NCBI GenBank assembly: GCA_032622095.1
Contig: CP136061.1
Span: forward strand, 39,065,797-39,129,796
Length of the DNA: 64,000 nt
Reading direction: 5' to 3'
From: Siphonodentalium dalli
Lineage: Eukaryota > Mollusca > Scaphopoda > Gadilida > Siphonodentaliidae
The translations under genes were made by a program, and so were the position numbers. This document shows, piece by piece, positions 19,461-39,600 of this stretch. The notes beneath the pieces were generated by a model. It searched no databases. It worked only from the letters and a program-made list of their open reading frames with translations, and was not told where the DNA came from. Positions within the stretch are counted from its first letter, which is position 1. Every line of letters begins with the position of its first letter.

Positions 19461-19714
19461 CAAGCCTTGAAATAGGGTGCCTGTCATTTGCAGAATGAGG
19501 TCCCCAGAGGGTGAATTTAGTGATGCTGTCCCGCATAGCGGGCTAGCATCACCAAATTCACCCTCTGGAGACCCCATTCTGCTTACACCTCAGCAGAATG
19601 AGGTTCACAGAGGGTGAATTTGGTGATGCTAGCCCGCTATGCGGGATAGCATCACTAAATTCACCCTCTGTGAACCTCATTCTGCAAATGACAGACACAC
19701 TATTTCAAGTCTTG
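19461..19714. mobile_element. 254-bp foldback element made of nested palindromes
   Basis: The outer arms (CAAGCCTTGAAATAGG and the reverse complement of CTATTTCAAGTCTTG) enclose two inner palindromes of about 90 bp. Each reads CAGAATGAGGT, GAGGGTGAATTT, TGATGCT, a GC-rich centre, then back again. The whole can fold into one long hairpin or two. It is non-coding and probably a miniature inverted-repeat element. Confidence 0.8.
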
Positions 19715-20246: not shown

Positions 20247-21178
20247 TTAATCGTTCATCCGAGTATATATATATATCGGAAATAACACATAAATATCACG
20301 ATAGTGGTCATCTACAATTATATATATAATATGGAGTTTACTATTCCAAGTGTTATTTATAGACAATTTTTTCTTTTCATAAAGGCATATAAAATGAATT
20401 TTGCTAACTGACGGTGGATATGATATTATTTCAATCAGTGCATCATTGTTGTCTTCATCATTAATAGTAATACCAACGGGAATAGAATGCAGGAGCCGAA
20501 ACCGTAAGTGTGTGTACAGAGGGCAACGCAAAAGAATGTGGCTTTCATCCTCCATTTCGTGCAGGTCGCACAGAGTACAGATTCGTTCATGAACTTTCTC
20601 ATTTCGAAATCTGCAAGTTGCTATTCTCAGCGGAAGTATTGCGCAACGAAATGGAGCCAAAATCGATCGGTGAGGTTTGTCAATGTTCATAACCTGTAAG
20701 TGCGTAGCTTTGGGACATAGTTAAGTCTTTATAGCCAGTTATCTGCTCGACTTTGAGTGAGTTTCAATTCTAGATCGGAACGTTACATGTTTGTATATTT
20801 TCAAAGGTTTGTATCATTCCAGCTTCGTTAAGAATATCAGAGAAATTGGCGCTCCAACCATTTGATATTTCCAAGAGATCCCACAAGAACACGTTTTTGA
20901 AAAGTCGTTCATCAGACAATTAATAAGATGGTTCCATGCACATTCTAGCCATGTTGACCAATCAGCGTAATCTACTTGTTTGGATACCAATTTCGCATTC
21001 AATGGCGCATTCAATAGCGGACAAAATCGATGGACGCCAAGGAAATACACGAACGCTCTGTTTTGAACCATTCCTATACAAGGGTATTTTCTGTACCCCA
21101 GATACCAGACGTATAATCCATAATGGGGCTAACACAGTTTTGGAAAATTTTACCAAAAGTTTTGAAGCATATGTCCTT
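20247..21178 (-). pseudogene. LINE (Jockey/CR1-like) reverse transcriptase C-terminal remnant
   Basis: The minus-strand frame 20690-20247 contains RSILAPFRCAILPLRIATCR and a CTLC...HILLRCPLY cysteine/histidine cluster. These are typical of the region after the RT domain in Jockey-like LINEs. Upstream, around 20990-21060, is an AFVYFLGVHRFCP segment, and around 21080-21170 pieces of the RT thumb-side region occur in more than one frame, so the copy is frameshifted. The Polinton interrupts this LINE at 21178/37469; its other half is at 37469-37600. Confidence 0.7.
21173..21178. repeat. Polinton target-site duplication, left (GTCCTT)
   Basis: GTCCTT immediately precedes the left terminal repeat and is repeated exactly after the right one (37469-37474). 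A 6-bp duplication is characteristic of Polinton integrases. Confidence 0.95.
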
Positions 21179-22323
21179 AGAAGAATAGGGGGCTCGTTAG
21201 AGTCACATCTAAAAATAGAATCTTTGGGGTCTAAAATTGTTTGTACTAAAATATTCCCAAAATATCAAAACCCAAAAAAAAAAATTCAAAACTTCAAAAA
21301 TTTATTTTTTCCAAAAAATTTAAAAACTTCCAAAAAAATTTCAAAACCCTAAAATTTCCAAACTTCCAAATTATCAAAACCCTCAAAATTATTTCTCTAA
21401 AAAAAGTTTAAATAAAAAATTTATAACGAGTTTATCGGTTTCTGATAATCTCGATATTAAAAAATATCGAATGTTAAATTATTTGCGCGTAATATCTTTC
21501 GTTATTTTTTTGTTCAAATATTTTTCATGAATTTATTAATCGATGTTTAGAAATAGCTTTATTGGACATTGTGACCAACGGTATGAATGCATACATTCCA
21601 GTGTTTAACGGACGCAGTTCATATAATTGTCATACCTGAAAATAGACACCATTACTTTTTACATAAATAATAAAGAGCGTTTATTCTTTACTTATCTCTA
21701 TATGAAGTTATTGAGTATATGACAGGCGTGTGTATTTTCGTCAATTATTGGAAGTATTCAAATGTACTATGTTGAATCCCTAACGGTCGAAAATTGTAAT
21801 GTGAAATTAGAACCCTCCAGAATGAATTGTCATATTGAATGAATGATGATTTAATCTCAGCCATTTTTACATGGAACATGAGCGATGTACACTCAATCAC
21901 ACACGCCACATTGGTGTTAACAATGTGTCTTTCACACCTTTGCTTTACCAAATGAATTCTATTATTTCCCCGGTCACAGCTATATGGTATTCAGAAAACA
22001 TATCGAATTAATGTCTGAACAAACGGGGTTAGCATCAATTAAGGTTGATAAACTGTGTCATTCACGCGATAATTAGTTATCCATAAAACATGCATACATA
22101 TTAAGTCAGGTCGTGAGACACTCAATTATACAAATTGCTTTGATCACATTGTTATAACAACATTACGTAATAACCCCTTATCACTCCAGTCACACTTACG
22201 ATCATTTTGTATGCCGAAAACTCCAGGTAGCACCGATGATGTAACATTATATCACTGCTATTGTGCCAATGATAGGTTCAGACATGTTCTATGTTTAGAA
22301 AAATAGATAATCTGCAGGTGTTC
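21179..22323 (+). repeat. Polinton left terminal inverted repeat (1,145 bp)
   Basis: Starts AGAAGAATAGGGGG and matches the reverse complement of 36324-37468 over exactly 1,145 bp. I noticed about four substitutions (near 21282, 21588, 22008 and 22029) and no length change. A mirrored 68-codon frame occurs in both repeats but has no recognisable domain. One AAAGAGCGT motif lies at 21672, within a palindrome AATAAA-GAGCG-TTTATT. Terminal repeats are the integrase substrate and, in protein-primed replication, the likely origins. Confidence 0.95.
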
Positions 22324-22584
22324 ACTTGACAAGAGATTTTGTACACTCAATCACAGACCAACGTGATAATACCAGCCCACACCTAACCCCCAACATCCAC
22401 CAAACACCTTCACATCACTTACCAAAACCAATAATGTTATAAGAACTGTAGGTTTTTATAATATTATAGCTTGCAGTGACATCCTGGTAATTCATTTACA
22501 ACAGCCATAACAAATGTTTACTTATCATGTATATAAGAACTGTATAGCTCCTAATAAATAGGACACAGTGAACACAAAAAAAAA
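22324..22584 (+). promoter_or_regulatory. Leader and TATA promoter of the capsid/integrase gene cluster
   Basis: Unique sequence between the left terminal repeat and the ATPase start. A TATA-like TATATAAG at 22530-22537 lies about 48 nt before the ATG at 22585, consistent with a short 5' leader. All genes from 22585 to 28021 follow in the same direction with little or no spacing. Confidence 0.5.
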
Positions 22585-23250
22585 ATGGGTCCAATTAACC
22601 ATAGCTCCATACCATTTGAACCTTGTTCTAGTATTTGCATCACCGGACCAACTGGTTCTGGTAAGACGAGATGGGTCTACAGATTCCTGCAAAATCTTAA
22701 TGGAATGTATTCTAGAGATCCACCTAAGAAAATAATGTACTGTTACGGTATTTATCAAAATTTCTATGATGAAATTGAATCATCAATCGAAAATTTGGTC
22801 ATGCATCAAGGATTACCTACCCAAACAGAAATCGAAGAATTTGCTGACGGTAAACATAATATGTTAATATTAGACGACTTGATGCATCGCATTATTGACC
22901 AAAAAGAGATTGAAACACTATTTACGCAGCAAACTCATCATCGCTGTCTTTCGGTGCTGTTTATTTCACAAAATTTATACGCACAAGGCAAGGCTGCGAG
23001 AACTATAGCCTTAAACACAGGATATCTAATTTTATTCAAAAATTTGAGGGATGGATCACAAATTTCCACATTGGGTAGACAATTGTATCCCGGTAAATCT
23101 AAAGTACTCATTGAGGCATACAAGGATTGTATGAAGAAACCATTTGCGTATCTTATAATAGATATGTCCCCTCACACTGAGGATAAATACAGGCTACGAA
23201 CAGACGTGTTTCCCAACCAAGACCCTATAATTTACGTACCTACTACGTAA
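22585..23250 (+). CDS. Polinton packaging ATPase (FtsK/HerA-type, A32-like)
   Basis: A 221-aa P-loop ATPase expected to pump the element genome into capsids. Walker A is GPTGSGKT at residues 21-28. Walker B is MLILDD at about residues 93-98, followed by the LFISQN segment near 133-138, which resembles the conserved sensor region of Polinton and poxvirus A32-type ATPases. Length is normal for Polinton ATPases. The first ATG after the leader is used. It is the first gene of the plus-strand cluster, consistent with a morphogenesis unit. The frame is intact with no unusual residues in the motifs. Confidence 0.93.
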   Translation: MGPINHSSIPFEPCSSICITGPTGSGKTRWVYRFLQNLNGMYSRDPPKKIMYCYGIYQNFYDEIESSIENLVMHQGLPTQTEIEEFADGKHNMLILDDLMHRIIDQKEIETLFTQQTHHRCLSVLFISQNLYAQGKAARTIALNTGYLILFKNLRDGSQISTLGRQLYPGKSKVLIEAYKDCMKKPFAYLIIDMSPHTEDKYRLRTDVFPNQDPIIYVPTT

Positions 23251-23290
23251 TAAGAAGGGGACAGTATCGGAGCTGAGTCGCGACGATAAA

Positions 23291-23614
23291 ATGAGTCGAT
23301 TATTACGTAATGAGTTGAATTTTGTCAGACTATTGGCATCAACCCAATCAAGATCTCAACGAAACGCATTATTGACATCGATAACTAATAATCAGTTGAA
23401 AGTTCTGGTTGAAATTACGATCAATTTACTACATGATAGTTTAACAGTTACAGTTCAACAAAAAGCTAAATTACGGCGATATAAATCATTTTATATATTC
23501 TTGAGTGATAAATCTGTGAGTTTGTTGAGGAAAAGAAAAAGTGTGAATAATCACTCAACCGCCATTACTTTGATGTTGAACATCGTTGAACCTAAATTGA
23601 AACAGTTTTTGTGA
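23291..23614 (+). CDS. Small basic Polinton protein (107 aa)
   Basis: A basic, helix-rich small protein starting MSRLLRNELNFVRLLAS, with a patterned centre (LVEITINLLHDSLTVT) and a KLRRYKSF-type basic segment. Proteins of this size and pattern precede the integrase in many Polintons and adintoviruses as I remember them. No enzyme motif is visible. By analogy with adenovirus-like core or membrane-active peptides it could bind DNA or membranes, but that is only a guess. The stop codon TGA overlaps the next ATG by one base (TGATG at 23612-23616). Confidence 0.7.
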   Translation: MSRLLRNELNFVRLLASTQSRSQRNALLTSITNNQLKVLVEITINLLHDSLTVTVQQKAKLRRYKSFYIFLSDKSVSLLRKRKSVNNHSTAITLMLNIVEPKLKQFL

Positions 23615-23982
23615 TGGAGTCTGTGAAGAAAACTGTTTTGATCCCGTATGAAAGATATATGAGGTACACTGAAAAAAGTGAACACAAAAAAGTTTCATCG
23701 GAGTCTAACATTGAACACAGCGACATCTCGGCAAACAATAGTACCCCTTCCGATGAAATGGATAAAGAAATGGACCCGATGAATAATCAGATTGTTAATA
23801 CAGTTCAAACGACTGAACCTCAGGATGCAATCCAAAAATCAGAAGTTAACACATCGAAAAAGACACGTACCAAGCAAAGAAAAAAGAAAATAAGAGGAGT
23901 TAAGCGTGAAATATCTAGACCTCCTGGTATAATCGCCGGTAAGCTGACCAAGATAAAGAAGAAACGTTGGCTATCACTGTGA
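23614..23982 (+). CDS. Basic-tailed Polinton protein (122 aa)
   Basis: Begins MESVKKTVLIPYERYMRY. The ATG at 23614 is chosen; the frame is open three bases further upstream but only with GTG. The middle is acidic and polar (about residues 27-75). The last 40 residues are strongly basic (KKTRTKQRKKKIRG, KLTKIKKKRW), with a RPPGI element as seen in similar Polinton proteins. A nucleic-acid-binding or core role is plausible from charge alone. It shares one base with the preceding gene and ends five bases before the integrase ATG, implying translation from one polycistronic or alternatively spliced message. Confidence 0.7.
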   Translation: MESVKKTVLIPYERYMRYTEKSEHKKVSSESNIEHSDISANNSTPSDEMDKEMDPMNNQIVNTVQTTEPQDAIQKSEVNTSKKTRTKQRKKKIRGVKREISRPPGIIAGKLTKIKKKRWLSL

Positions 23983-23987
23983 ACAAT

Positions 23988-25097
23988 ATGGCCGATTGGA
24001 AAGATTATTTGAGTTCAATTTATTTTAATCCGGGTCACCCCGCATCGTACTCAGGAGCTACAAAGTTGCATCAGACTGTAAAATCTGAAAATAAGCACAA
24101 CATTTCCAAGCGCGAGATTGTGACGTGGCTACAAAATCATGAAAGTTATTCCCTGACAAAAAGTGTTAGACGAAAATTCCCGAGGTCTCGTGTTATTGTA
24201 AACGCTTCTGACAGTCAATGGGATGGAGACCTCATGGATATGAATGATGTTTCCAAAGACAACGACAATTACACCTACGTGTTAGTAATGATTGACATTT
24301 TTTCTAGGAAGTTATGGTGTGAAGCTATAAAGAGGAAAACTGCAATTAATGTGATCAATGCTATGAAACATATATTTGAAGGTGGAAGAACCCCGCGCGT
24401 CCTCCGAACGGATCGCGGTTCGGAGTTCACAAACAAACGGGTCAAAAGTTACCTAAAGGGTCTTCATATATCTCAAATTTTTACTCAAAACGAAATGAAA
24501 GCCAATTATTCGGAACGGGTCATAAAAACTATAAAGCAGAAGATTTCGCGTTATATGATAAAGCATAATAATGCTAGATATATCGACATTCTACAAGATA
24601 TTGTGAAAAGTTATAACCATACAATACATCGTTCGTTAGGCACCACCCCTGACTCCATAACTGTTGAGAATGAAGATGAGTCTCGTCTCGATCAGTGGTT
24701 AATAAGACAGAAGGGAGGTGTTAAAAGTAAATTGAAGAAAAAGTTCAAATACAATGTAAATGATATCGTTAGAATATCACACACCAAAGCAGTTTTTGAC
24801 CGAGAATATTCTCAGAAATGGACTGGAGAGTTGTTCAAAGTGACTAAGAGGTTTTACAGGCAGAACATACCCTTGTATACATTGACAGATTTCTTGGATG
24901 AAAACATTGAGGGTGCTTTCTACGAGTCAGAACTTCAAGGGGTGCGCGTTGATGACGAAACAGTTTACAGAATAGATAAAATTGTCAAAAAGAGGAAACG
25001 AAAGGGTCAAACTGAAGTCCTGGTGCACTGGCATTCATGGCCTGACAAATTTAATTCATGGATTTTAGAGTCTGATGTCGACAGATATCAAAATTAA
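23988..25097 (+). CDS. Polinton integrase (rve/DDE) with C-terminal chromodomain
   Basis: A 369-aa retrovirus-like integrase that inserts element DNA and makes 6-bp duplications. The ATG at 23988 (MADWKDYL) is chosen; an upstream TTG is not a credible eukaryotic start. Catalytic triad: D81 in WDGDLMDM, D142 in RTDRGSEF and E176 in YSERVIK, with 33 residues between the last two. Residues about 327-368 form a chromodomain (EVLVHWHSWPDKFNSWI), as in many Polinton and chromovirus integrases, which probably steers insertion by reading histone methylation. All key residues are intact. It lies between the small basic genes and the membrane PC4-like gene. Confidence 0.95.
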   Translation: MADWKDYLSSIYFNPGHPASYSGATKLHQTVKSENKHNISKREIVTWLQNHESYSLTKSVRRKFPRSRVIVNASDSQWDGDLMDMNDVSKDNDNYTYVLVMIDIFSRKLWCEAIKRKTAINVINAMKHIFEGGRTPRVLRTDRGSEFTNKRVKSYLKGLHISQIFTQNEMKANYSERVIKTIKQKISRYMIKHNNARYIDILQDIVKSYNHTIHRSLGTTPDSITVENEDESRLDQWLIRQKGGVKSKLKKKFKYNVNDIVRISHTKAVFDREYSQKWTGELFKVTKRFYRQNIPLYTLTDFLDENIEGAFYESELQGVRVDDETVYRIDKIVKKRKRKGQTEVLVHWHSWPDKFNSWILESDVDRYQN

Positions 25098-25136
25098 TAA
25101 GAGCAAGCTATCCGAGGGGGGGAAACCATTACAATC

Positions 25137-25577
25137 ATGAATAATAGAACAGATACCTTGACGAATATGTTTCAAACAGAACGCGGTCGTCTACATATGA
25201 ATCTCCTTAAATGGATAGGAATTACGATTATGGTAATAACTCTGTCACTACCGGTTATAATAGTTCCAAAGAAGATACCACGTCAGACGGGGGACTATGA
25301 ATTACGGCATACGAACGAGTCACGCCCCCATGATTACGAACAACACCCCTGTGGGTTCGTGAAAAAGTGGACAATACGATCAAACATTACTGTTACATTA
25401 TGTAATAATCAAGGGCGCATTTATACACGCATTAGGCGAGTTGTGAATAACACTCCCGCGATTATAAGTATTCCGTATAACCAGTGGTCTGCCTTCAAGT
25501 ATATATTCAGTGATGTTGATAAAACTATAAGAGAAGAGATGAACATTGATTCTCATTTGAAACAAAATAGAAACTAG
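25137..25577 (+). CDS. Membrane-anchored PC4-like protein
   Basis: 146 aa. One hydrophobic segment, residues about 26-44 (WIGITIMVITLSLPVII), is long enough to span a membrane. The C-terminal part (about 80-134) resembles the PC4/p15 single-stranded-DNA-binding fold: a strand pair ITVTLCNNQGRIYTRIRR, then SIPYNQWSAFKYIFSDVDKT, matching the end of PC4 where a strand leads into the long helix. Seen directly: the hydrophobic segment and this pattern. Inferred: that the PC4 module faces the inner side and holds ssDNA or viral DNA at a membrane. It sits between integrase and capsid genes, which also fits a virion or membrane role. The element has two further PC4 modules at 28905-29516. Confidence 0.65.
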   Translation: MNNRTDTLTNMFQTERGRLHMNLLKWIGITIMVITLSLPVIIVPKKIPRQTGDYELRHTNESRPHDYEQHPCGFVKKWTIRSNITVTLCNNQGRIYTRIRRVVNNTPAIISIPYNQWSAFKYIFSDVDKTIREEMNIDSHLKQNRN

Positions 25578-25581
25578 TCAT

Positions 25582-26022
25582 ATGGATAATTATTATCTGT
25601 ACCTGACTAGCGACGATTCCATAGATAAATATCCAGATAATCGTCCTCTCGACTTCACAATAGAGTTACCTGGTGTATTAATATTGGAAGGGGCGTGGTT
25701 ATGTTGTTTGAAAGACATAAACATAACTGACCATATAGACACGGATTTATTATATATTTGTTCGGACATATGTGGAGAATCAATAGCCTGCGACACATCA
25801 TACCCCATCCTCCGGGTTATAAAGAGAGACACACGTGATACGGGTCATTGGCGGAGTTTTGAGCACTCATTCTACATAAACGTAAGACAGGATAAACTTC
25901 AGCGTCTCAGGATTTTTATAAGAGGCGATAAACTTTCTAAAATAAATGCAGAAAAAAGAGTGACCTGTACACTACATCTGAAGAAGAAACATGTCGATCA
26001 CGTATATTCCAGCCGATATTGA
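25582..26022 (+). CDS. Capsid-cassette protein, candidate minor capsid/penton-type
   Basis: 146 aa beginning MDNYYLYLTSDDSIDKYPDN, followed by a beta-rich region (DFTIELPGVLILEGAWLCCL). This opening pattern recurs in a protein of the capsid cassette of other Polintons as I remember them, where it has been considered a structural component. No catalytic motif is seen. It is shorter than most penton-type jelly-roll proteins, so this could be a compact version or a different structural protein. The last 32 nt overlap the next gene in another frame. The start ATG is five bases after the previous stop. Confidence 0.55.
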   Translation: MDNYYLYLTSDDSIDKYPDNRPLDFTIELPGVLILEGAWLCCLKDINITDHIDTDLLYICSDICGESIACDTSYPILRVIKRDTRDTGHWRSFEHSFYINVRQDKLQRLRIFIRGDKLSKINAEKRVTCTLHLKKKHVDHVYSSRY

Positions 26023-26320
26023 AATGTGGCGAAAACATTTCAGGAACATGATTAATGGGAAGTTAACGCCAGATAATGAGGGTCGCTACTTTATTGACAA
26101 AACTCAAAATAGCGATAGTGAAGAAGAAGAAGACGTTCTAAAACCACATATTAACGTAGTGACACCCATAGCGCAAGCGATTGAAATGGCCAAAGCAGAA
26201 GTTGCAGAAAATAAGTTGACACAAGCACGTAAGACGTCAAAAAAAAACAATAAGAGGGTGTTACCTAACGATTTGGCTCATAACCCTAAGAAAGCACCTG
26301 GTGGGATAAACCATGAATGA
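25991..26320 (+). CDS. Small basic Polinton protein (109 aa) before the capsid gene
   Basis: Starts MSITYIPADIEMWRKHFRNM. It has an acidic patch (DSEEEEDV), then VVTPIAQAIEMAKAEV and a basic tail (KTSKKNNKRVLPNDL). A short protein with the same order of motifs precedes the major capsid gene in many Polintons and adintoviruses as I remember them; function unknown. A virion-internal role is possible. It overlaps the previous gene by 32 nt and the capsid gene by 8 nt (ATGAATGA at 26313-26320). Confidence 0.65.
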   Translation: MSITYIPADIEMWRKHFRNMINGKLTPDNEGRYFIDKTQNSDSEEEEDVLKPHINVVTPIAQAIEMAKAEVAENKLTQARKTSKKNNKRVLPNDLAHNPKKAPGGINHE

Positions 26321-27575
26321 ATACAGAGAGTACCATACCTCTAAATTGGCATTATTTGAATCGCCCCCGGTTGACAGCGGAATACAAGCGACAGAATGGA
26401 TAAACTACAGACCCGTGAATCAGCTGACAGACACTGCAGCTTTAGAGTTCAATATTCCCGCCATGGCCACAACCTACATGGACCTCAAACGGACATTGCT
26501 ACTTCTCAAACTCAAAATAACCAAGCAAGATGGTTCGGCTCTAACCGTTAATGACGATGTGGGTCTGATAAATGCACCCCTACATTCAATATTTTCGCAG
26601 GTCGATTTGAATATACAGCAAGTTCCCGTGAGTCAAGTCGGTCCGAATTATCCATACAAAGCATATTTCGATGTACTCTTAGAAACTGAACGTAAGGAAC
26701 AGCTACATGGACAAGCGTTCGAAAAGGACACGGCAGGTGGTATGGACCTGGCAGATTCGAAAAGCGGGAACTCTGGCCTGTATTACAGGTCCAAAACAAC
26801 CCGTACTAGTCAAATAATGGATATTATGGGATCAATTCAGCTTGACTTCTTCCAACAGGACAAATTACTACTAAATGGTCTCCCGCTCACGTTAAAATTC
26901 TGGCAGACGAGAGATGTTTTTAGACTGATGTATGCGGGAACCACTGAGACATACAAGTTGAAAATACAGGAAGCTAATTTGAGACTAGCCACTGTGAAAG
27001 TTAACCCCGGTGTATTACTCAGTCATACTGAGTCACTCAAGAAAAATAACGCGTGTTATCCTTTTTCAAAATCTATCATAAAGACGTATACAGTGTCAAA
27101 AGGTGCATTCAGTTTGGGAGAAGATAATCTATTTCAAGGAAACGTACCCAGTAGCTGTATTATTGGCTTAGTATCATCAAAGGCTGAAAGCGGTTCACGC
27201 GATAAGAACCCGTTCAACTTTGCGACTTTTGGATGCAACTTCGTCGGATTTTACGTCAACGGGCAGTCTATGCCCGCCCAAGCACTCCAACCGAACTTTA
27301 CCAGTAAGGAATATGTAGAAGCTTACAATACGATAATAAAAGATGCGAAACGAAAAGCCGTTCATATTACTTATGAGGATTATGCGAAAGGTTATTGCAT
27401 ATATCGGATAAACCCGCAAGGAATTAATCACGACAGGGTCATACCACACAAAGGTCACACACGCCTCGAAATTAAATTCTCATCGGCTTTGAAAGACAAT
27501 TGTACTGTAATCGTATACGCAAAATTTCCTGCCGTTCTCAAAGTTGACGAGAGTCGTAAAGTTTGCATTGAATAA
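26313..27575 (+). CDS. Polinton major capsid protein (double jelly-roll, F54H12.2-like)
   Basis: 420 aa. It follows the family of animal proteins annotated as F54H12.2-like, recognised as the Polinton major capsid protein. Recognisable blocks: FSQVDLNIQQVPVSQ near residues 95-110, YPYKAYFDVLLETE at about 116-129, then DIMGSIQLDFFQQDKLLLNG at about 169-188, CIIGLVSSKAESGSRDKNPF, and YAKGYCIYRI toward the C terminus. Predicted role: forms pseudohexameric capsomers of an icosahedral shell, matured by the protease encoded next. The frame is intact. Its TAA stop overlaps the protease ATG by one base (TAATG), and its start overlaps the previous gene. Confidence 0.9.
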   Translation: MNEYREYHTSKLALFESPPVDSGIQATEWINYRPVNQLTDTAALEFNIPAMATTYMDLKRTLLLLKLKITKQDGSALTVNDDVGLINAPLHSIFSQVDLNIQQVPVSQVGPNYPYKAYFDVLLETERKEQLHGQAFEKDTAGGMDLADSKSGNSGLYYRSKTTRTSQIMDIMGSIQLDFFQQDKLLLNGLPLTLKFWQTRDVFRLMYAGTTETYKLKIQEANLRLATVKVNPGVLLSHTESLKKNNACYPFSKSIIKTYTVSKGAFSLGEDNLFQGNVPSSCIIGLVSSKAESGSRDKNPFNFATFGCNFVGFYVNGQSMPAQALQPNFTSKEYVEAYNTIIKDAKRKAVHITYEDYAKGYCIYRINPQGINHDRVIPHKGHTRLEIKFSSALKDNCTVIVYAKFPAVLKVDESRKVCIE

Positions 27576-28021
27576 TGAATACACTCGGACTCATGAGGGC
27601 GATAAATAGTTTCACAAACCATAATGAGATAGATGTTTGTCCCATAGACAAATTACCTCTTTATATCCAATATCCCCGGATGTATATAGTTAACACAGAC
27701 GAGAGTAGCCAACCTGGACGCCACTGGATATTGATGACATTCCAGGAACATAACGTATCAGAGTTCTTCGACCCTATGGGATTAAAACCCGAGTGTTACA
27801 ACGGACGATTTAAACACGTGTTGTTATTGAATGGACCTCGTTACGAGTGCAATGCTTACAGATTACAGGGTTCTAATATATGCGGTCCCTATTGCATATA
27901 CTTTGCATTCTATAAACTGTGCGGATACAGTCTAGAAAATATAATGAGACGTTTCAGTGCCAATAATTATATGTATAATGATTTAATTATTAAGGATTTT
28001 ATGTTGAAATATATTCTGTAA
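27575..28021 (+). CDS. Adenain-like cysteine protease (maturation protease)
   Basis: 148 aa, the usual size of Polinton Ulp1/adenain-type proteases, which cleave capsid precursors. Catalytic candidates: His50 (GRHWIL), Asp66 (FFDPMG), Gln98 (YRLQGS) and Cys103 (NICGPYC). The His-Asp-Gln-Cys order and the five-residue Gln-Cys spacing fit the family. All are present, so activity is plausible. The start ATG shares one base with the capsid stop. It is the last plus-strand gene of the cluster and converges on the TBP-like gene. Confidence 0.9.
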   Translation: MNTLGLMRAINSFTNHNEIDVCPIDKLPLYIQYPRMYIVNTDESSQPGRHWILMTFQEHNVSEFFDPMGLKPECYNGRFKHVLLLNGPRYECNAYRLQGSNICGPYCIYFAFYKLCGYSLENIMRRFSANNYMYNDLIIKDFMLKYIL

Positions 28022-28136
28022 ACGCTCTTCATTAGCGACAACGAGATAAACACTCTTTAAATTATATTATGTATATAAATAAAATATTGTAAATACAATC
28101 ATTTATCGTTCTTATATTATCATATGTATGACTGGG

Positions 28137-28183
<47 letters not shown>

Positions 28184-28368
28184 CTGGGTTGAGAGGGGTG
28201 GGGGTGGGGGGTCTGTGGAGAGAGTCCGGTGAGGTGGTATTAGGTCTGTTGTCAAAACAAACAAAAAAAATCTATTGTTTTTGTTTGTTTCGTCAAAAGC
28301 CTAAAAAACAAAGGTATGTGAGCCATCCCCCCGAATGAAAAATATAGATAATCGATACATATATATAT
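28022..28368. terminator. Convergent intergenic region with AT repeat, G-tract and hairpin
   Basis: Lies between the ends of the protease (plus) and TBP-like (minus) genes. It holds an (AT)n run at 28141-28180, a G-rich tract GGGGTGGGGGTGGGGGG near 28195-28211 that could form a quadruplex, and an inverted repeat AACAAACAAAAA / TTTTTGTTTGTT at about 28256-28291. ATAAA-type polyadenylation signals occur on both strands. Transcription-end function is inferred from position. Confidence 0.5.
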
Positions 28369-28893
28369 TTATTCTGAAAGTAATTCAAGTTCACATATGG
28401 TAGGATATACAATATTTAACATCTGCTTTTCACTTTTAATGCCCGTAATCACAATTTTTCCATTATGAAAGCATGTAAAATGTATTTTCTCACGTCTGAA
28501 CATTGCCGCAGGGAACAGCTCTAATTCGTAAGAACATTCCATAAGTTTCACTAAAATGTTTAAGTCAAGTTTTCCATTTAACTGACAAAATGCAGACATT
28601 GTCAAAATTTTTATGGAATTTAATCTCACTCGCCAACCACATTTTTGAATATGTCGAGCGTACCGACGCAATCGAACTCGTGTCTGTTTGACACTATCAG
28701 AAAGCCCGTTAACAACGATTTTACCCGTGTTAAACACGAGGCAACATCCACCGAATTTAGAATGTTTCCATACAACTCCGCTAAACTTTTTGGAATTGTA
28801 TTCAATGTTCGAACAGCCGAGTGTCAAATCCCTTAGATTAATAGAACAGTTCAAATCTGCAGAACATACGACATTAGTTATTCGTAGCATCAT
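28369..28893 (-). CDS. TATA-binding-protein homologue encoded by the Polinton
   Basis: 174 aa covering both repeats of the TBP saddle and almost nothing else. Repeat 1: ITNVVCSADLNCSINLRDL, IEYNSKKFSGVVW, CLVFNTGKIVVNG, then RYARHIQKCG. Repeat 2: CSYELELFPAAMFR and FTCFHNGKIVITG. The four phenylalanines that kink TATA DNA in cellular TBP are all present (F37, F54, F127, F142). The minor-groove Asn of repeat 1 is kept (N7), while its repeat-2 counterpart reads Thr98 (KILTMS in place of the usual IQNM). Similarity to TBP appears to continue a few residues upstream of the ATG. It begins 11 nt after the stop of the tandem PC4 gene. Likely a promoter-binding initiation factor for the element; function is inferred. 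Confidence 0.9.
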   Translation of the reverse strand: MMLRITNVVCSADLNCSINLRDLTLGCSNIEYNSKKFSGVVWKHSKFGGCCLVFNTGKIVVNGLSDSVKQTRVRLRRYARHIQKCGWRVRLNSIKILTMSAFCQLNGKLDLNILVKLMECSYELELFPAAMFRREKIHFTCFHNGKIVITGIKSEKQMLNIVYPTICELELLSE

Positions 28894-28904
28894 AGGAGTA
28901 ATGT

Positions 28905-29516
28905 TTAGATCAATGTCTGCATCCGGTTAATCAAACACGTTCTATCGCCGTTGGGGCAGCATTCCATACATCTTAAAGATCCTTCCTGGTTTTGGTGATC
29001 GTCGGTCAAATAGCACTGCACAGTCTGATCAATTTCAGGAATATTAGCACACAGGACGAATATAGCTCCAACTAGTTCTTCAAATTGGTCGAATGTCAGA
29101 GATATTCCGTATTTGGTTGCACACAAATCATCTGAATGTTCAGGCAGCCAATACCTGCGAATGTCAACACGCGGGATGCCGCTCTTTATCGTAATGAAGA
29201 AATTCCCTCCGATATGACGTCTCATGAATACATCGTCTTCACCGGTACGATAACTGACCACTTCTTGATGTATATCTGCTAAGTAAGATTTCAACTCTTT
29301 GAATCTCCTTAGATTTAATGTTATTCCAGATTTTGTCGGAAATTTAAGGCCCGCAGAACTTTCACCGCACTCTCGTATGTGTATATACAGATTTCCCTGG
29401 AATCGGCCGTCAAATAGGAAAATGTCATTTCCTAACGGGGCCAAGCATTGTGGATGGAACGCCCTCTCGTTGGTTTCAGTCCGTTGGTTTCCTTCAACAT
29501 CGGGTTGATCAGTCAT
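28905..29516 (-). CDS. Tandem PC4/p15-domain protein (transcription cofactor-like)
   Basis: 203 aa from the ATG at 29516 (MTDQPDVEG); the frame is open 14 codons further upstream but that part reads as leader. Two PC4-like modules: residues about 32-87 (GNLYIHIREC ... SGITLNLRRFKELKSYLADI) and about 102-158 (NFFITIKSGIPRVDIRRYW ... YGISLTFDQFEELVGAI). Each has the antiparallel sheet and the G-I-x-L strand leading into the long helix, as in the cellular coactivator PC4, which binds ssDNA and promotes initiation by RNA polymerase II. A Cys-rich tail (CMECC ... C, residues 183-194) could bind metal. It is co-directional with and 11 nt upstream of the TBP-like gene, so the two are probably co-expressed. 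Confidence 0.82.
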   Translation of the reverse strand: MTDQPDVEGNQRTETNERAFHPQCLAPLGNDIFLFDGRFQGNLYIHIRECGESSAGLKFPTKSGITLNLRRFKELKSYLADIHQEVVSYRTGEDDVFMRRHIGGNFFITIKSGIPRVDIRRYWLPEHSDDLCATKYGISLTFDQFEELVGAIFVLCANIPEIDQTVQCYLTDDHQNQEGSLRCMECCPNGDRTCLINRMQTLI

Positions 29517-29915
29517 TGTTTTTTTATTTTGAACCTGGAAAATAAGAAAACAAAACATTACTTATCAGTTACACATCGAGAATACAAAAGTCCGAAAGGA
29601 GTCCGCTCATGCGTTTGGTGGATGTTGGGTGTGGGGGGAGGCCCGCCCCCCGCCCGCCCCGCCCGCCCTGGGGGAGGGGGAGGCCCGCCCGCCCCGCCCG
29701 CCCGCCCGCCCGCCCTGGGGAGGGGAGGCCCGCCCGCCCGCCCGCCCGCCCGCCCTGGGGAGGGGGAGGCCCGCCCGCCCGCCCGCCCGCCCCCGCCCAC
29801 CCTGGGGAGGGGGAGCCCCGCCCCCGCCCTGTCGCCCTGGGGGGAGGGGGGAGGCCCGCCCCCCGCCCGCATACTCAATAAGAATAAGAAAATTGAGTCA
29901 TTGAGTCAGTTCATT
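29517..29915. promoter_or_regulatory. GC-box minisatellite between divergent genes (candidate bidirectional promoter)
   Basis: Between the divergent PC4 gene (minus) and F-box-like gene (plus) lies a 240-bp GC-rich island (29631-29870) in an otherwise AT-rich element. It is built from tandem units of CCCGCCCGCC followed by CTGGGGAGGGGGAGG, repeated about five times. GGGCGG-type GC boxes occur many times on the minus strand, and G-runs allow quadruplexes on both strands. No TATA box is evident next to either start. Promoter role is inferred from position; long Pro/Arg frames across it are shadows. Confidence 0.6.
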
Positions 29916-30476
29916 ATGGAGAGAATACTACCCGCAGAAATACTGGAGAAAATATACAATCAGCTAATTGAAATGTCAACTATAAATCCAGAAATAAAAA
30001 AACAACTACTACACAATTGGTTTATAAGAGAAATTAAAATAATACTGAAGAATATAGATGAAGGATATTTTCCTGTACAACGATTGAAATCTTTGATTGA
30101 GAGGTCTGAATTTGAAACTGATTTCTTACAAGATATATTGAATCAAATGTATTCAAATCGCTGGGTATTTAGAGGCGTTCCTAAAAACAAAATACATGAC
30201 ATTCGTGAACTTATTGGAGATAACTTTGTGAGATTTGCAGAATACCGAGACTGGGTTTTCAATCAGAGAAGTTTTGAAGAAGTGACAATAATTCATGGAT
30301 ATATCATTCTCCGTGAACCGGGTACACTGTTCACGATTGAACAAATACTTAACAGCGGCGTGATTTTGGATTACATTTCTACAAGTAAATCGAAATATAT
30401 TTCAGAATTAGAGAATGAATTAATCTGGTCATTCGGAATAATCTGGAATTATGGTGACTCTTCGTTGAGAAAATAA
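29916..30476 (+). CDS. F-box-like accessory protein of the Polinton
   Basis: 186 aa from the ATG at 29916 (MERILPAEILEKIYNQL); a longer frame through the GC minisatellite is open but not credible. The first 20 residues fit an F-box-like pattern (LPxEILxxIYxxL), which in cells would link to Skp1 of a ubiquitin ligase. The rest is charged and helix-rich, with a block DIRELIGDNFVRFAEYRDW and a second HGYIILREPGTLFTIEQIL. I recognise no known domain there. A clear paralogue with one premature stop lies outside the element at 59224-59820, so this gene family exists more widely in the genome. It could be a captured host gene or a host-interaction factor; both are hypotheses. Confidence 0.7.
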   Translation: MERILPAEILEKIYNQLIEMSTINPEIKKQLLHNWFIREIKIILKNIDEGYFPVQRLKSLIERSEFETDFLQDILNQMYSNRWVFRGVPKNKIHDIRELIGDNFVRFAEYRDWVFNQRSFEEVTIIHGYIILREPGTLFTIEQILNSGVILDYISTSKSKYISELENELIWSFGIIWNYGDSSLRK

Positions 30477-30862
30477 AAAAAAAATAGTTGTTTTTGGTTT
30501 AAGTATAAACCAAAAATGAGATTGTACTGGAGGTAAAAATGTAATGATAGAAATCATAATTCATAACTAACCTGTATAGAATATTTCACACGCACAGTAT
30601 AGGACTACCGAATTTGTAATTGTGAATTGGATCGGGTAGCATTTTATAGATCGAAAAAATGGACACCTTGGATAAATTGACCAATGACGGCCATACGTTT
30701 ATAGTAATACGTGTTCATACACGCTCGATGTTATCTAACATCGAACGTGTTTGAACGAGTCTTAGTATAATCCGATAACTACCATCGATCGAATATTTAC
30801 ACTCTCATTACAACCTTGATCAAATATAGACGATTAAATTATATATATATTACGTACCTCGT
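30477..30862. terminator. Convergent intergenic region with two hairpins
   Basis: Lies between the ends of the F-box-like gene (plus) and polymerase gene (minus). A perfect 10-bp stem TTTTTGGTTT / AAACCAAAAA with a six-base loop lies at 30491-30516. A longer stem lies at 30713-30756: 21-nt arms with two mismatches around a TC loop. The first resembles the T-rich hairpin at the other convergent junction. Transcript-end or replication roles are inferred. Confidence 0.55.
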
Positions 30863-33800
30863 TCAATATCCATATGGCAGTGTATCCATGTTATCCAATC
30901 GTCTGCGTTTGGTATAAACAACTCGGTACTGTTTGTCCTCAGATCTGTTATATATCTTTCTTTTTCCTTTCGATCTGCATATTTTCCTTGGATTGGTTGT
31001 GGTGATGGGCACTGTGCTTCCAGATTCTAACAGCTCTTTAATCGTCTGGAAATTGATGAACTGTGAATTTTCAAAGTTCAAAGAGAACCCCCGAACTTTA
31101 CACGTCTCTTTAGCTTTATTTGTTCGATAAGCGTAATTCTTGGGGCCTCCAGAAACAAATTCTTCGATGTATTCGTCCTGATCTAGCTCGCTGGTGAGTT
31201 GGCCCAAATAGTCGCCCAGTGGGGGATTAATTTGATCCTCAGTGCTGCTAAATACACAACTATCCGTGTCGTAATATAATACTCTTCTGTCCAAGGAATG
31301 AATAACTTCATATAGCATTAATCGAGCGTGACACGTCGTGAATGTGGCCAAATATATGTTATTCGCTGCTCCACAAGGCACACAGTCTTTTCGATAGGTC
31401 CACTCCATTTGAAGCATGTCATCAGTTATGACATGAAAATTTTCCATTTGTTTCATTGGATTTGAAATCAGCTGGAATAGATTGTCTTGTTCCGATTCAT
31501 GGAAATACTCGGTCTGCTTGAAATTCTGGTTTTGGCCTAACTTCCCCCAAAATGAGTTGAGCATGAGCTTGCTGATTTGCCTCAGTCCTGGATTCTTTTC
31601 GATGCTTTCTCTGTCCAGTAATATACCTTCGTTGTCTTTATACGATGTGATGTATTTATCCATGTCTTCGTTAGATTTTATCCAATCCGGAGGACCGCTA
31701 GCCTGCTGCTTGAACTTTAGGAATGTGTTTATATAATCCGTGAATAATCCATTTTGTTGGCTATAGTCTGACGTTTCGGTCCAGTGGTATATTTCATATA
31801 TTTTGAGAATCTTGTATCCCACTTTGACAGCTGTCTCCAGTTCAGGAATACACCAAACGCCGGTAATGGCTCTCTGTTGGCACGTACACGTGCAAGGTCG
31901 TTGATTTTCATTATCAGCACAAGTCCTGCACAGTGGAAACTTCAGTTTACCTTCGGATCGATACGGTAATACGGGGTGATAGAGTCCATTAGGTGGTAAA
32001 ATCTTGACTTGCGCTATTCCGAAGTAATCCTTAAGCTCGGTAATGTCATCGCCCAAAATGATTTTAGGGTGTCCAATCGGATAGCGAGAGTATTTGAGCA
32101 CACTTGGATACAGCGACGTGAAATCAAAATAGTGTATTTTCTCACCAACGGCAGCTTTGTAGTGTAATTTAGTTGCATTCGTTCTGCCGCCGAAGAAACT
32201 GTCTCTAGGCTCTAGCCGCTCAACAATGTCTAAACTAGCGATGAAGTCACGAAGCTCCGGATTAGTCTTTCGAGCAGCGACGAACTCGTGTTCCCAAATG
32301 CACACATATTTCATGCCTCGACTTTCTATAAACTTCTTCTTTTTCTGTGTGAGTCCGTATAATTCATTAGGTGTCTGGTTGGTTATCGGATTCTTGACTA
32401 TGTCTCTGTCGTGACTCAGACAAAGTTCACATCCATGGAATTGACAGCCGTGAAATTCGAATGCCGTGTTTAATTCTTCGCAATAACCATCCAATCTGTA
32501 CTTTGCATCATCGAGTTTCTTTTCACGGCCGTTCAATGCGTGAGTTATGTGAACTTTGTCTTTGAACATCAGCCATTCCAGCCATTGAATAGAACTTTTG
32601 CTGTATTGATCTTTATACGATGTCTTGGGGATTCGAGCTATCTGGGATTTGAGAAATTCTTTCTCACGAATTTGGACGCCGCGTTCATCTTGAAGTTTTG
32701 TGTCTTGAACCCATTCACCTTTGTATAAAATAGACAAGGTTCCATCTTTACATTTAGCAGGAAGCCACGTTTTCCCTTCAGTACTTAGACGCACTCTCCA
32801 TTCCTCGTCGACGAATTTCGTTCTGAATATACCCATACATACCGATGCGATTGTAACGTATTGGAATGGATCAACCGCACCGACCAGTTTGAACTTCATA
32901 TCGCCAGAAAACTCGTCAATTACGGGTTGTATATTTCCAGTCGCATTCATGATGTGGGTTCTGAATTTTATGCAAGCTTGTCTCAAAATATTGACATCAC
33001 TACGACAATAATCCGATAATTCTTTCTTGAAGATGAAAACTGCATTTGTTTGAGTAGCGTGCCATTTCGTGAAGTCTTTTCGTTCAGCCACACTCATATA
33101 ATCAGCGCCGTAATATTTGGCATCCGGATAGGGTCCTTCATAATTCTGGTTGGCTGATTTATTGAAAAAGTGCGGGAACCATCCTTTTTTCTCGCCATCA
33201 AGACCGAAAGTTTTCGGTAACAGTGCCAGCTTCATTGGTAGAAAGCTGAGACTGTCCAGTACTTTTATATGAAGATCTTTTTCCACGTATAGGTACATCA
33301 ATTTGGATCCATTATATATAACTTTGGGTCTCAAGGATTGATCAATGAGATATTCCATGAGAAAATATCCATCGTAACCCTTGAAGTTGTGAGCCAGTGC
33401 TATGAACCCTTTGTGTTGTTCCGAGAATAACCATTTTCCAAACTTTTCACCGGTATCAGGACCGCTAAATATAACCTCTCGGAGTCCGCATGTATCCGAA
33501 CATAAATTTCGGTCACTCTTCTTTTTCTTCTTCTTGTCATCACTGTCGATACACGCATCACATAGAGGTCCGCAATTTTTACAGTTCGGTTTCACTTCCA
33601 ACGATTCATGCATGCATTCGTAGCAAGCTGTTTGGGCGACGAGGAAGTTCGGTGTATGCTGGACTTTTCCGCACCATGTTTTTAAACAGTTCTGAAAAGT
33701 AATAATTGAACGTTTTAACCTCTAGCTTTATCGATAATAAAAAACAAAATAAAACGTCTACACTTTGTTTAAATAATTATTTTAAAAAAAAAATTAAAAA

Positions 33801-36078
33801 AAAAGGTTTTGATATAGGTTCAACGTTAATAAAGAGCGTTGACGTATTACTATTGTTCGTTGGTTGATCCTAAAAAATTACTCGTTCCAATCTACGTGTC
33901 AATATTAAAAATGTATATCATGATTCGACATATAGCCTGTATAATTACCGATTCAAGCACGCAGATATCAAGTTCAATAAAGTTAAAACAATTATATATT
34001 ACGTTAGTTCACTATATAACAATTACAAATCTCTTTTCACAAAAAAATATGTTACACATTTGTTCAATGTGTCAAGAATTAAAAAAGTTAATTACTCGGT
34101 TTAACATCTGTGACTCAGTTGAATTTTAATATTGAGACCCCTTAACTTTGGTCGAATTCAAGTATGTAATTGTTATATGGTAATATAACACGCGAGGTAA
34201 CAGCTAAAAGAGCGTTCAGCGATAATCTAATTTAAAAAAAATGAAAGAGCGTCTCTACTTATGCGCGCCTTTAATAAAGAGCGTTACGTTATCGTGATTT
34301 CGACTGTAATGTGTTACATATATATATATTACAATTAGGTTAAGACTCACCTGACACTTAGCACATTTCTTACATATATGATCCTCTTTACAGTCCTGGC
34401 AATCCTTTGTATGTAAGGGTGAATATCCTTCAGAACATTCCAATATATCATGTTGAATGGTTTCGAAGTCGAAGAAACAGAATTTAGCTCTTTCATCATC
34501 AGTAACGGGAGGTATGGCCCTCACATAGCATTCGTGTGGTCCCATTGTGTATTTGTCACACGATCTACAAAATGTTTCTCCGCACACGTGTTGATTCGGA
34601 CGTCTTTTCCGTCTCTCCATGACTTTTGTACAGTCCAAGCATTTCCACCATTTTTGACAAGGCGCTGTAGTTTCTCCCGAAGCTTGATTAATAGGTTTTG
34701 CTTTATGACGCACGAAACATTGATGAGACATACACGTCATATTACAATCTGAACAATGTTCTTTGTTTTCACTTTGTCCACATTTATCGCTTTTGCACAC
34801 GAAACAGGTGTGTTCACAATAATGCTTTCCTTTGGTTGAATAATGTTTTAAACAATGCACACAGAAATATGCATCGCTAAAGAATCCCGTTATGGATTGT
34901 ATAGCGTGGAAATGTTCATTAGCAGTGAGATATAAATATATCACGGGTCTTTCTATACCGTCTGTAGGCGCGCTGGTAATGAATTTATTACCCAGTCTAG
35001 CACTGATGACTAGTATTGTCAAATTCAGAGTTTCCTCGAATGCTTTTAGATCTGCTAAACTGGCCGGTCTGTCTGTTGATACACCTGCGATGACACTAAT
35101 TGCTTTGGCTAATTTTCCTTGCTCCGTACGTTTTTTGACCGTCACATTTTTGTAATAACTGCTCGGTACTTTTCTGTATTCCATGATGAGTTGTAAATTA
35201 TTTCTGGTTCCTCTATTCTGTGTTATTTCCAGCCATTCATCAGGACTGCAAATATTTAATTTACACCAACATGTGGCGATAGCCCGTGCCATACACATAT
35301 TGTCGGTGTTTTCAATCGTAACGATCGATGTTTTATTTCTTAGATTGTTACTTTCATTATGTAAAGCCGTTATCCTCCTCCGTGCTCGGCCTTTAGGTAA
35401 CTCGATGGTGCCTATATCTATGTGGAAACTTTGATTAACAGTCAGTGTTTGATTACTGTTCAAAACGAGTTCGATTCTGTCAATCACAGTGTTAGCATTT
35501 AACGTTTGCAACGTTTGTAACGGAACTACTATAGGGTTGTCCAAACTTTCATGGTGAATGATAACTCTGCCAAGATCATTGTCAGCCAAATTTCCACGAG
35601 CTCTTTGAATAGTGTCCTCGAACATTGAATGCAGATTCCTGTATATGTCGATTAACTTTTTCTCTTTGTAAATTTCATCTAATTTGATTTCATATGTTCT
35701 CTGTGTTGCCAAATTGTTTCCGAAGATTCGTTCACTCCTTTTGCGAATGCTATATCCAGTTATTTGAATATCAGAACTGCCGGCTGTTTGATTGTCTGAT
35801 TTTACAGCTCCTTCTTCGTCTTTTCGGTTTTGTAATCCTGATGGTCCAGCTGTACCGGGTTGTGAGTTGTTAACATCATTTTTAGACGCATCATCTTCTC
35901 CGTATCCGATTTGGTTCGGCCATGGGTCATCTCCTGAACAAAGCGTAGATGCTTCAATTATATCTTCATCCAGTTGATAAGCTACGATAGCCTTGTCGTA
36001 TTCTTCGATGTCTTGCAGAATACATTCTATTTCATAAATTTCATCCACTGTCAGAGGTGTCATTATTTCTTCAGCCAT
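30863..36078 (-). CDS. Protein-primed family B DNA polymerase (POLB), two exons
   Basis: Two exons, 36078-34351 (576 codons) and 33691-30863 (942 codons plus stop), give a predicted 1,518-aa polymerase that replicates the element from its termini. The N-terminal part (about 250-400) holds a DNMC...HFHAI pattern reminiscent of OTU-type proteases. Residues about 405-576 are rich in CxxC pairs (zinc ribbons). Exonuclease motifs: DFE (537-539), NFKGYD (678-683), YCRSD (804-808). Polymerase motifs: A YFDFTSLYPS (D1099), B KLMLNSFWG (about 1284-1292), C YYDTDS (D1384, D1386). An insert before motif A (EFHGCQFHGC ... IWEHEF) resembles Vsr-like endonuclease segments of Polinton polymerases. The C terminus ends TLPYGY, typical of the group. 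All catalytic residues are present. Confidence 0.93.
33692..34350 (-). other. Spliceosomal intron of POLB (659 nt)
   Basis: The donor CAG|GTGAGT and acceptor TTACTTTTCAG|AA are both in phase 0 and link a Cys-rich reading frame on each side. Without splicing the upstream frame runs into a low-quality tail and stops. The intron contains four copies of the AAAGAGCGT motif (33831, 34207, 34244, 34276), all in plus orientation, opposite to transcription. Confidence 0.85.
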
Positions 36079-36323
36079 TTTTCGAGAAGTCCTGAGTAGT
36101 GATTACAGCGGCGTATATTCACTATATGGAATACAGCTTAGTAAGCTATATTTTTATACCATAAAATCCCGAACATATGCAAGCACGAATGACGTAACAT
36201 TATATAAGATTATATATATATGAACGTAATGTATGAATAGGCCGATAATTGGTTTTGTACGGACGAGGCAACATTAGTTGTTTAACTGGTTATTATTACG
36301 TAACCCTGTGTTCCCCCCGCTGA
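36079..36323 (-). promoter_or_regulatory. Promoter region of POLB
   Basis: Unique sequence between the polymerase ATG and the right terminal repeat. On the minus strand a TATA-like TATAAAAATATA (36147-36158) lies about 70 nt upstream of the ATG, mirroring the TATA box before the ATPase gene at the other end. Confidence 0.5.
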
Positions 36324-37468
36324 GAACACCTGCAGATTATCTATTTTTCTAAACATAGAACATGTCTGAACCTATCATTGGCACAATAGCAGTGATATAA
36401 TGTTACATCATCGGTGCTACCTGGAGTTTTCGGCATACAAAATGATCGTAAGTGTGACTGGAGTGATAAGGGGTTATTACGTAATGTTGTTATAACAATG
36501 TGATCAAAGCAATTTGTATAATTGAGTGTCTCACGACCTGACTTAATATGTATGCATGTTTTATGGATAACTAATTATCGCGTGAATGACACAGTTTATC
36601 AACCTTAATTGATACTAACCCCGTTTGTTCAGACATTAAATCGATATGTTTTCTGAATACCATATAGCTGTGACCGGGGAAATAATAGAATTCATTTGGT
36701 AAAGCAAAGGTGTGAAAGACACATTGTTAACACCAATGTGGCGTGTGTGATTGAGTGTACATCGCTCATGTTCCATGTAAAAATGGCTGAGATTAAATCA
36801 TCATTCATTCAATATGACAATTCATTCTGGAGGGTTCTAATTTCACATTACAATTTTCGACCGTTAGGGATTCAACATAGTACATTTGAATACTTCCAAT
36901 AATTGACGAAAATACACACGCCTGTCATATACTCAATAACTTCATATAGAGATAAGTAAAGAATAAACGCTCTTTATTATTTATGTAAAAAGTAATGGTG
37001 TCTATTTTCAGGTATGACAATTATATGAACTGCGTCCGTTAAACACTGGAATGTATGGATTCATACCGTTGGTCACAATGTCCAATAAAGCTATTTCTAA
37101 ACATCGATTAATAAATTCATGAAAAATATTTGAACAAAAAAATAACGAAAGATATTACGCGCAAATAATTTAACATTCGATATTTTTTAATATCGAGATT
37201 ATCAGAAACCGATAAACTCGTTATAAATTTTTTATTTAAACTTTTTTTAGAGAAATAATTTTGAGGGTTTTGATAATTTGGAAGTTTGGAAATTTTAGGG
37301 TTTTGAAATTTTTTTGGAAGTTTTTAAATTTTTTGGAAAAAATAAATTTTTGAAGTTTTGAAATTTTTTTTTTGGGTTTTGATATTTTGGGAATATTTTA
37401 GTACAAACAATTTTAGACCCCAAAGATTCTATTTTTAGATGTGACTCTAACGAGCCCCCTATTCTTCT
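36324..37468 (-). repeat. Polinton right terminal inverted repeat (1,145 bp)
   Basis: Reverse complement of the left repeat over its full length, ending CCCTATTCTTCT. The inner junction reads GAACACCTGCAGATTATC on this strand. It carries one ACGCTCTTT (reverse of AAAGAGCGT) at 36967. Confidence 0.95.
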
Positions 37469-37474
37469 GTCCTT
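37469..37474. repeat. Polinton target-site duplication, right (GTCCTT)
   Basis: Exact copy of the left GTCCTT. Removing the element and one copy rejoins the LINE remnant on either side. Confidence 0.95.
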
Positions 37475-38602: not shown

Positions 38603-38872
38603 CTGGATGATAAAATACACTTATTACACGCGTGTTCCTAGAAGTACAGTGGTATTGCTGTTCCATATCTACAAATCCGTATGGAACGTACGTTCCATAC
38701 GCATTTCGTTGACGTAAAATGACGTACATGACGTTCGCCTCAACCATGAAACTGGAAATATTTAAATAAAAGAATCATCACACATTACAAACACGCCCTG
38801 TATGAGCCTCAATAAACCTTCTAATCCTGTATTTTCAATGCACGGATTCTAGGACGCGAAGCGTGTAATAAA

Positions 38873-39532: not shown

Positions 39533-39600
39533 GTATTTATTGGCCAATGTCACTCGACTGACGTGACACAGTCATGACGTCAAAACTGATTGGTGCGGTT

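Follow-up and report, generated by a model that had tools for sequence, protein, structure and literature searches.

A Polinton in the genome of Siphonodentalium dalli encodes its own TATA-binding protein

A complete Polinton in the genome of the scaphopod Siphonodentalium dalli carries a gene for a TATA-binding protein (TBP), a core-promoter factor that is highly conserved in eukaryotes and archaea. It lies within a stretch of 64,000 nucleotides that was analysed as a whole (the window; contig CP136061.1, positions 39,065,797 to 39,129,796 of the forward strand). The gene encodes a protein with the predicted fold and the key residues of a TBP, is placed inside a complete element, occurs in high copy number and shows signs of purifying selection. 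A Polinton with its own TBP had been proposed in the first-pass annotation of the window, and the sequence, the fold, the copy number and the position of the gene support this proposal. We regard the element as a recently amplified Polinton whose TBP is genuine, largely intact and apparently under selection, and the transcriptional mechanism set out below as likely.

The identification of the TBP carrier as a Polinton was borne out by its long terminal inverted repeats (TIRs) and 6-bp target duplication as well as by a type-B DNA polymerase (PolB) and an RVE-type integrase, both of which scored above the Pfam cut-offs (Table 1). The element has the termini AGAAG...CTTCT, and its TIRs hold AT-rich degenerate repeats. 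In the stretches retrieved around the ends of three copies, the left end was covered in all three and the right end in one; a second copy, at C7:8481656, was enclosed on both sides by a target duplication of its own, ACCGAC. Nested palindromic repeats flank the window's element on both sides (19461-19714 and 38872-39534). Among the 55 relatives of the putative major capsid protein, four are annotated in bivalve genomes, in keeping with a mollusc host. The lengths of the PolB exons on either side of the predicted intron preserve one frame, and such an intron would imply nuclear transcription by RNA polymerase II (Pol II). A search of the window against Rfam gave no match.

Table 1. Features of the Polinton and its genes (positions within the window)
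Feature	Position	Strand	Remarks
Complete Polinton	21179..37468		16290 bp; 6-bp target duplication GTCCTT at 21173-21178 and 37469-37474
Left terminal inverted repeat	21179..22323	+	1145 nt, 100% complementary to right; terminus AGAAGAATAGGGGG
TATA box TATATAA	22530..22544	+	55 nt before ATPase ATG
Putative packaging ATPase	22585..23250	+	P-loop; AAA and Pox_A32 (E=0.0029) matches below Pfam cut-offs
RVE-type integrase with C-terminal chromodomain	23967..25097	+	Pfam rve E=6.5e-15, Chromo E=8.4e-8
Putative minor capsid protein (mCP)	25582..26022	+	position and conservation only
Putative major capsid protein (MCP), 420 aa	26313..27575	+	55 relatives; no Pfam match
Putative adenovirus-type maturation protease	27575..28021	+	Pfam Peptidase_C5 E=6e-4, just under cut-off
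TATA-binding-protein gene	28369..28893	-	174 aa, intronless, two TBP repeats
Tandem PC4-domain gene	28905..29513	-	202 aa from ATG 29513; Pfam PF02229 E=6.3e-14, two stretches
GC-rich minisatellite	29634..29870		between PC4-TBP and divergent gene; length-variable
Divergent gene, 186 aa	29916..30476	+	ORF; no Pfam match
PolB, second exon	30863..33691	-	Pfam DNA_pol_B_2 E=4.5e-52; acceptor AG 33693-33692
Predicted spliceosomal intron in PolB	33692..34350	-	659 nt; GTGAGT ... TTTTCAG; by eye, consensus only
PolB, first exon	34351..36078	-	ORF 34255-36078 continues into predicted intron
TATA box TATAAAA	36145..36158	-	80 nt before PolB exon-1 ATG
Right terminal inverted repeat	36324..37468	-	1145 nt

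The TBP open reading frame is found on the minus strand, and the plus-strand reading of the same positions is interrupted by stops. The profile search that the first-pass annotation had proposed as a check gave a significant hit of Pfam TBP (PF00352) over two stretches of the protein (110.7 bits, E=3e-32), above the curated cut-off and in line with the two TBP repeats claimed there. A two-repeat saddle fold was predicted, and structure comparison gave TM values up to 0.92 to cellular TBPs. The two repeats together with the saddle fold place the protein in the TBP family.

The protein was aligned with yeast TBP, the numbering offset between the two agreeing with chain 1ytb_A. Phe37, Phe54, Phe127 and Phe142 correspond to yeast Phe99, Phe116, Phe190 and Phe207, respectively, and Asn7 in repeat 1 to yeast Asn69; Thr98 stands at the position of Asn159 in repeat 2. 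The reading of these six residues from the sequence alone was thus correct. The four DNA-intercalating Phe, Asn7 and Thr98 are invariant in 99 copy rows, among which the window's own copy is included and four places are held twice. The roles assigned to the residues (DNA contact, kinking by Phe, contact with TFIIB) are presumably those that they have in known TBP structures. Val9, Thr150 and the TFIIB-contact residues Glu123, Glu125 and Leu126 are kept as well. Canonical TBPs have, in the middle of the DNA surface, an Asn in both repeats with a Val two residues on; repeat 2 of the element TBP departs from this with Thr98 and Ser100 and has in addition Thr140 instead of Leu. In repeat 1, Asn62 replaces Thr124. 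These four substitutions make a preference for the standard TATA box uncertain.

The 28 metagenomic relatives described below share Thr98 in all cases and Ser100 in 27, and retain E123, E125 and L126 in 26, 26 and 24 cases, respectively. Between the two Glu of the TFIIB contacts the host TBP and all 28 relatives have a Pro, whereas the element TBP has Leu124; of the 99 copy rows, 32 carry an additional amino-acid substitution in codon 124. The TFIIA contact positions are partly different. Judged from the sequence, the DNA surface appears mostly ordinary in its first half and altered in a clade-wide manner in its second, with the TFIIB contacts kept. Such a protein may still nucleate a Pol II complex, possibly with a preference for other boxes.

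The host possesses a canonical TBP of its own, the coding region of which lies in at least five pieces (L039 and L117). The element TBP is 33% identical to the host TBP, 32% to that of yeast and 26-28% to archaeal TBPs, and its best database relatives are 30 metagenomic proteins with 38-58% identity. In a tree of 35 rows, the element TBP and 28 of these relatives (P0027 and P0030 being left out as incomplete) were separated from three eukaryotic and three archaeal TBPs by a branch with support of 100/99; TRF/TLF, giant-virus and mirusvirus sequences lay outside this sampling. This tree therefore sets the element TBP apart from eukaryotic TBPs, within a comparison of three eukaryotic and three archaeal sequences, and a grouping with the eukaryotic TBPs, as expected of a canonical TBP, was not obtained. 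Ten of the 32 inner branches were well supported, and the position of the element within its clade was not well supported.

Further relatives were sought in the same genome and in public collections. With the distant relative P0010 as query, no second TBP family was found among the best 150 of 429 candidates in the genome. Scans of IMG/VR and of GTDB genomes with TBP queries yielded no confirmed match, nor did the capsid scan of IMG/VR, and the capsid scan of GTDB returned one match, located at the end of a Solemya velum gill symbiont scaffold (NZ_JRAA01000003.1; L056:1-3986). This fragment holds matches to the integrase, mCP, MCP and protease, with a capsid protein 55% identical to that of the element, and neither a TBP nor a PolB was found in the fragment with the following 9.5 kb. 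The scaffold end is probably host DNA joined in assembly, and the element may be broken off there. A search with P0021 found nothing in the Solemya velum symbiont genome or in 194 genomes of its family, which shows little as the search had no positive control. The longest contigs of the 30 TBP relatives and of the 55 capsid relatives, compared by eye, had no coinciding sizes, TBP contigs of 13-20 kb included; this speaks mildly against Polintons with this type of capsid as the carriers of those 30 TBPs. Since none of the outside TBPs could be linked to a Polinton in these comparisons, their clade may live in another kind of element, which would have been the source for this Polinton.

The genome comprises 2.227 Gb in nine contigs. 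In the Pfam search of the genome, the best 150 of 600 candidates were scored and all 150 exceeded the cut-off, the top one being a host TBP exon. The best 150 of 455 candidates from the protein search were all 97-100% identical to the element TBP, 53 of them fully (the window's own included), and 148 were free of stops, two being interrupted; such lists favour well-kept, intact copies. The union of the profile, protein and P0010 searches contains at least 183 distinct TBP places across all nine contigs, counted with a truncated copy at C2:377017 and without the host exon. TBP was found in the same order and 2.15-2.60 kb from PolB in 42 of 50 PolB copies (the best 50 of 2321 candidates). One further copy had TBP at 9.6 kb, and seven had no TBP place among the matches listed. 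Four of these seven form two inverted pairs about 5 kb apart (C1:95380956/95385991 and C3:286444075/286449236), which are perhaps palindromic derivatives of the element.

Among 94 distinct TBP copies, two of which contain a stop codon, variants private to one copy numbered N55/S20 (omega about 0.90) and those shared by at least two copies N24/S26 (about 0.33; Fisher p=0.005), in a sample that favours well-scoring copies and in which shared variants are not independent of descent. A set of 39 loci did not show this contrast for TBP (shared N3/S1, too few to judge); PC4 (shared N4/S5, p=0.12) and the protease (N3/S3, p=0.36) leaned the same way without significance. The simplest reading of the variants is neutral decay after insertion, with constraint while the gene was passed on.

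The gene upstream of TBP encodes PC4, a transcription and single-strand DNA-binding domain. The two genes share a strand but not a frame, with 11 nt separating the PC4 stop from the TBP ATG, and 40 of the 41 copy rows have an identical junction and spacer. The minisatellite region beyond the pair varies in length: in 39 copy rows, the two fixed markers that flank it are 276 to 446 nt apart. PC4 domains occur widely in the genome (150 domain matches scored, the best of 1076 candidates, in open frames of differing length), and each of the five proteins checked, among them that of the window, contains two PC4 stretches, which is what one expects of a single-chain dimer. A search with the PC4 protein found no relatives (18 candidates), and its structure prediction without alignment was unusable (pLDDT 34).

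Eight stretches of 8 kb each, part of 20 other PC4 stretches first chosen in this genome, were inspected. None of the eight contains a TBP, and five of them have matches to further genes known from Polintons (ATPase, integrase, protease or PolB). PC4 thus appears to be a frequent component of these elements and TBP a special addition to them. The survey of other elements suggested in the first-pass annotation accordingly turned up no further TBP, either in these eight stretches or in the single Solemya-associated fragment, from which PolB is absent too. Genes for inhibitors of apoptosis (BIR plus RING) adjoin PC4 at L050:4824-5504 and L053:4257-5090, and a deoxynucleoside kinase gene adjoins it at L048:4572-5243. 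Elsewhere the PC4-TBP segment is present three times in tandem with a unit of 2.77 kb (L041, C2:85769000-85778900) or twice (L042, C2:195209000-195218900), and in one copy TBP and PC4 are open in a single frame of about 383 aa (L043:4373-5521).

Both TATA boxes to which transcription had been proposed to be redirected, at 22530 and 36147, are present in front of the ATPase and PolB genes. The ATPase box overlaps a 13-nt repeat, TATAAGAACTGTA, with a second occurrence at 22438; beyond the copies at 22438 and 22532 the window has no further exact match. A 30-nt stretch of the ATPase promoter matched 204 genomic places with up to two mismatches and a 32-nt stretch of the PolB promoter 160 places with up to three; the reversed-pattern control gave 0 in each case. 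The TATA core was unchanged in the best 100 of the 204 and the best 100 of the 160 matches, and all differences lay outside it; this gives weak support, given the young age of the copies and a search confined to close matches. The word TATAWAD was not enriched, occurring in four of 13 upstream stretches of 150 nt at an element density of 0.47 per 150 nt. No TATA word is present within 150 nt upstream of PC4-TBP, where the GC-rich minisatellite of varying length lies. A 16-nt motif that precedes the ATPase operon as well as PC4-TBP (expected 0.01) was rejected as a shared promoter element, since only 16 of 41 copy rows have an exact match to it and 22 of 41 an exact match to its 12-nt core. The kept TFIIB contacts and the predicted PolB intron make it plausible that Pol II is redirected to the two TATA promoters; against this, TATA words are not enriched and the host TBP could serve the same boxes.

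The best explanation, and in our judgement a probable one, is that the element TBP, paired with the tandem PC4 protein, recruits host TFIIB and Pol II to the promoters of the element. The TBP would sit on these promoters as a DNA-bending saddle, and its choice of TFIIB and Pol II as partners would favour transcription of a PolB replication operon and of a virion and integration operon (ATPase to protease), both of which start near TATA boxes. The PC4-TBP pair, with its TATA-free upstream region, could be the first to be expressed, by means of the host machinery. More tentatively, the TBP with its altered second half and the single-chain PC4 might form an orthogonal core-promoter factor that reassigns Pol II to the element operons, the TBP belonging to an old mobile-element clade apart from cellular TBPs. 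If the element TBP instead bound TFIIB or occupied host promoters, and thereby lowered host transcription or the antiviral response, one could understand why the TFIIB-contact residues were retained while the repeat-2 DNA surface changed; the BIR/IAP genes in two other PC4-bearing stretches would likewise act on the host. However, the four DNA-bending Phe and the repeat-1 Asn are invariant in the copy rows, although a pure decoy could do without them, and the gene is paired with PC4, a domain of transcription and single-strand DNA binding, which renders such interference unlikely. No better placed is an architectural role, in which TBP would bend DNA at the TIRs or the origin for replication, packaging or integration, with PC4 as the single-strand binding protein there. 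The DNA binding of PC4, the PC4-bearing stretches without TBP and the AT-rich repeats inside the TIRs agree with it, but it offers no obvious reason for the clade-wide conservation of the TFIIB-contact residues.

Two further possibilities concern the gene itself. A captured TBP without function in the element could have been amplified by hitch-hiking, and the copies are indeed so similar that they carry little information, for seven of the 50 scored PolB copies the matches listed include no TBP place, and the 39-locus set lacks the selection contrast. Against such a passenger stand the depletion of amino-acid changes among shared as compared to private variants in the 94 copies (p=0.005), the stop-free state of 148 of 150 scored copies in a list that favours intact ones, and a diverged clade with the same residues; we consider it very improbable. 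The intronless reading frame would also suit an origin from the host TBP gene, as a retrocopy or a fragment of it. This origin can practically be dismissed, given only 33% identity to the host TBP, a host coding region in at least five pieces and a position on the opposite side of the 100/99 branch.

Transcription of the element through its own TBP thus remains the preferred reading. A 16-kb transposon with a TBP in more than 100 stop-free copies suggests that a mobile element can supply its own access to the Pol II machinery. With its half-altered DNA surface, the protein offers a direct test of whether such a TBP can establish a set of private promoters in the nucleus of a eukaryote, and the many extra TBP genes in one genome constitute a natural experiment on host transcription.

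The element shares with Polintons/Mavericks (polintoviruses) a PolB and an RVE integrase, long TIRs, the 6-bp target duplication and a size of 16 kb, together with a capsid-like gene and candidates for ATPase and protease that score below the Pfam cut-offs, and differs from them by the addition of TBP and the adjoining tandem PC4 gene. Open-access titles and the starts of abstracts contained no report of a TBP in a Polinton; preprints and most subscription papers lay outside this scope, so that precedence is not settled. A term search of a paper on Polinton-like viruses (PMC4642659) retrieved no TATA, PC4 or transcription factor, and in PMC12220804 the term matches were confined to the reference list. 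Compared with canonical eukaryotic TBPs (host, yeast, human, Arabidopsis), the element TBP has Thr98, Ser100, Thr140 and Asn62 and no N-terminal extension. Non-cellular TBPs, among the matches and passages considered here, come mostly from large viruses. Giant viruses likewise carry TBP homologues, several of them so named among the 39 BFVD matches at E 0.001 or less; these are 8-22% identical to the element TBP, with a query TM of 0.80 or less as against up to 0.92 for cellular TBPs, so that they are structurally more distant, and the best is unnamed. A megavirus makes its own RNA polymerase subunits, according to PMC11464507, which also deals with a megavirus TBP, whereas no RNA polymerase subunit gene was seen in the element. 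In mirusviruses, DNA viruses that infect plankton, TBP is described in 59% of genomes and a contiguous genome reaches 431.5 kb (passages in PMC10132985); TBP is common in this group, likened here by description, and the genomes are far larger. Finally, the Cymbomonas heliorhodopsin elements (CHeCMEs) are integrated and reportedly contain TATA-binding protein genes sporadically, and differ from the Polinton described here in being mirusvirus-like algal elements of putative mirusvirus origin (as described in passages of PMC10675990).
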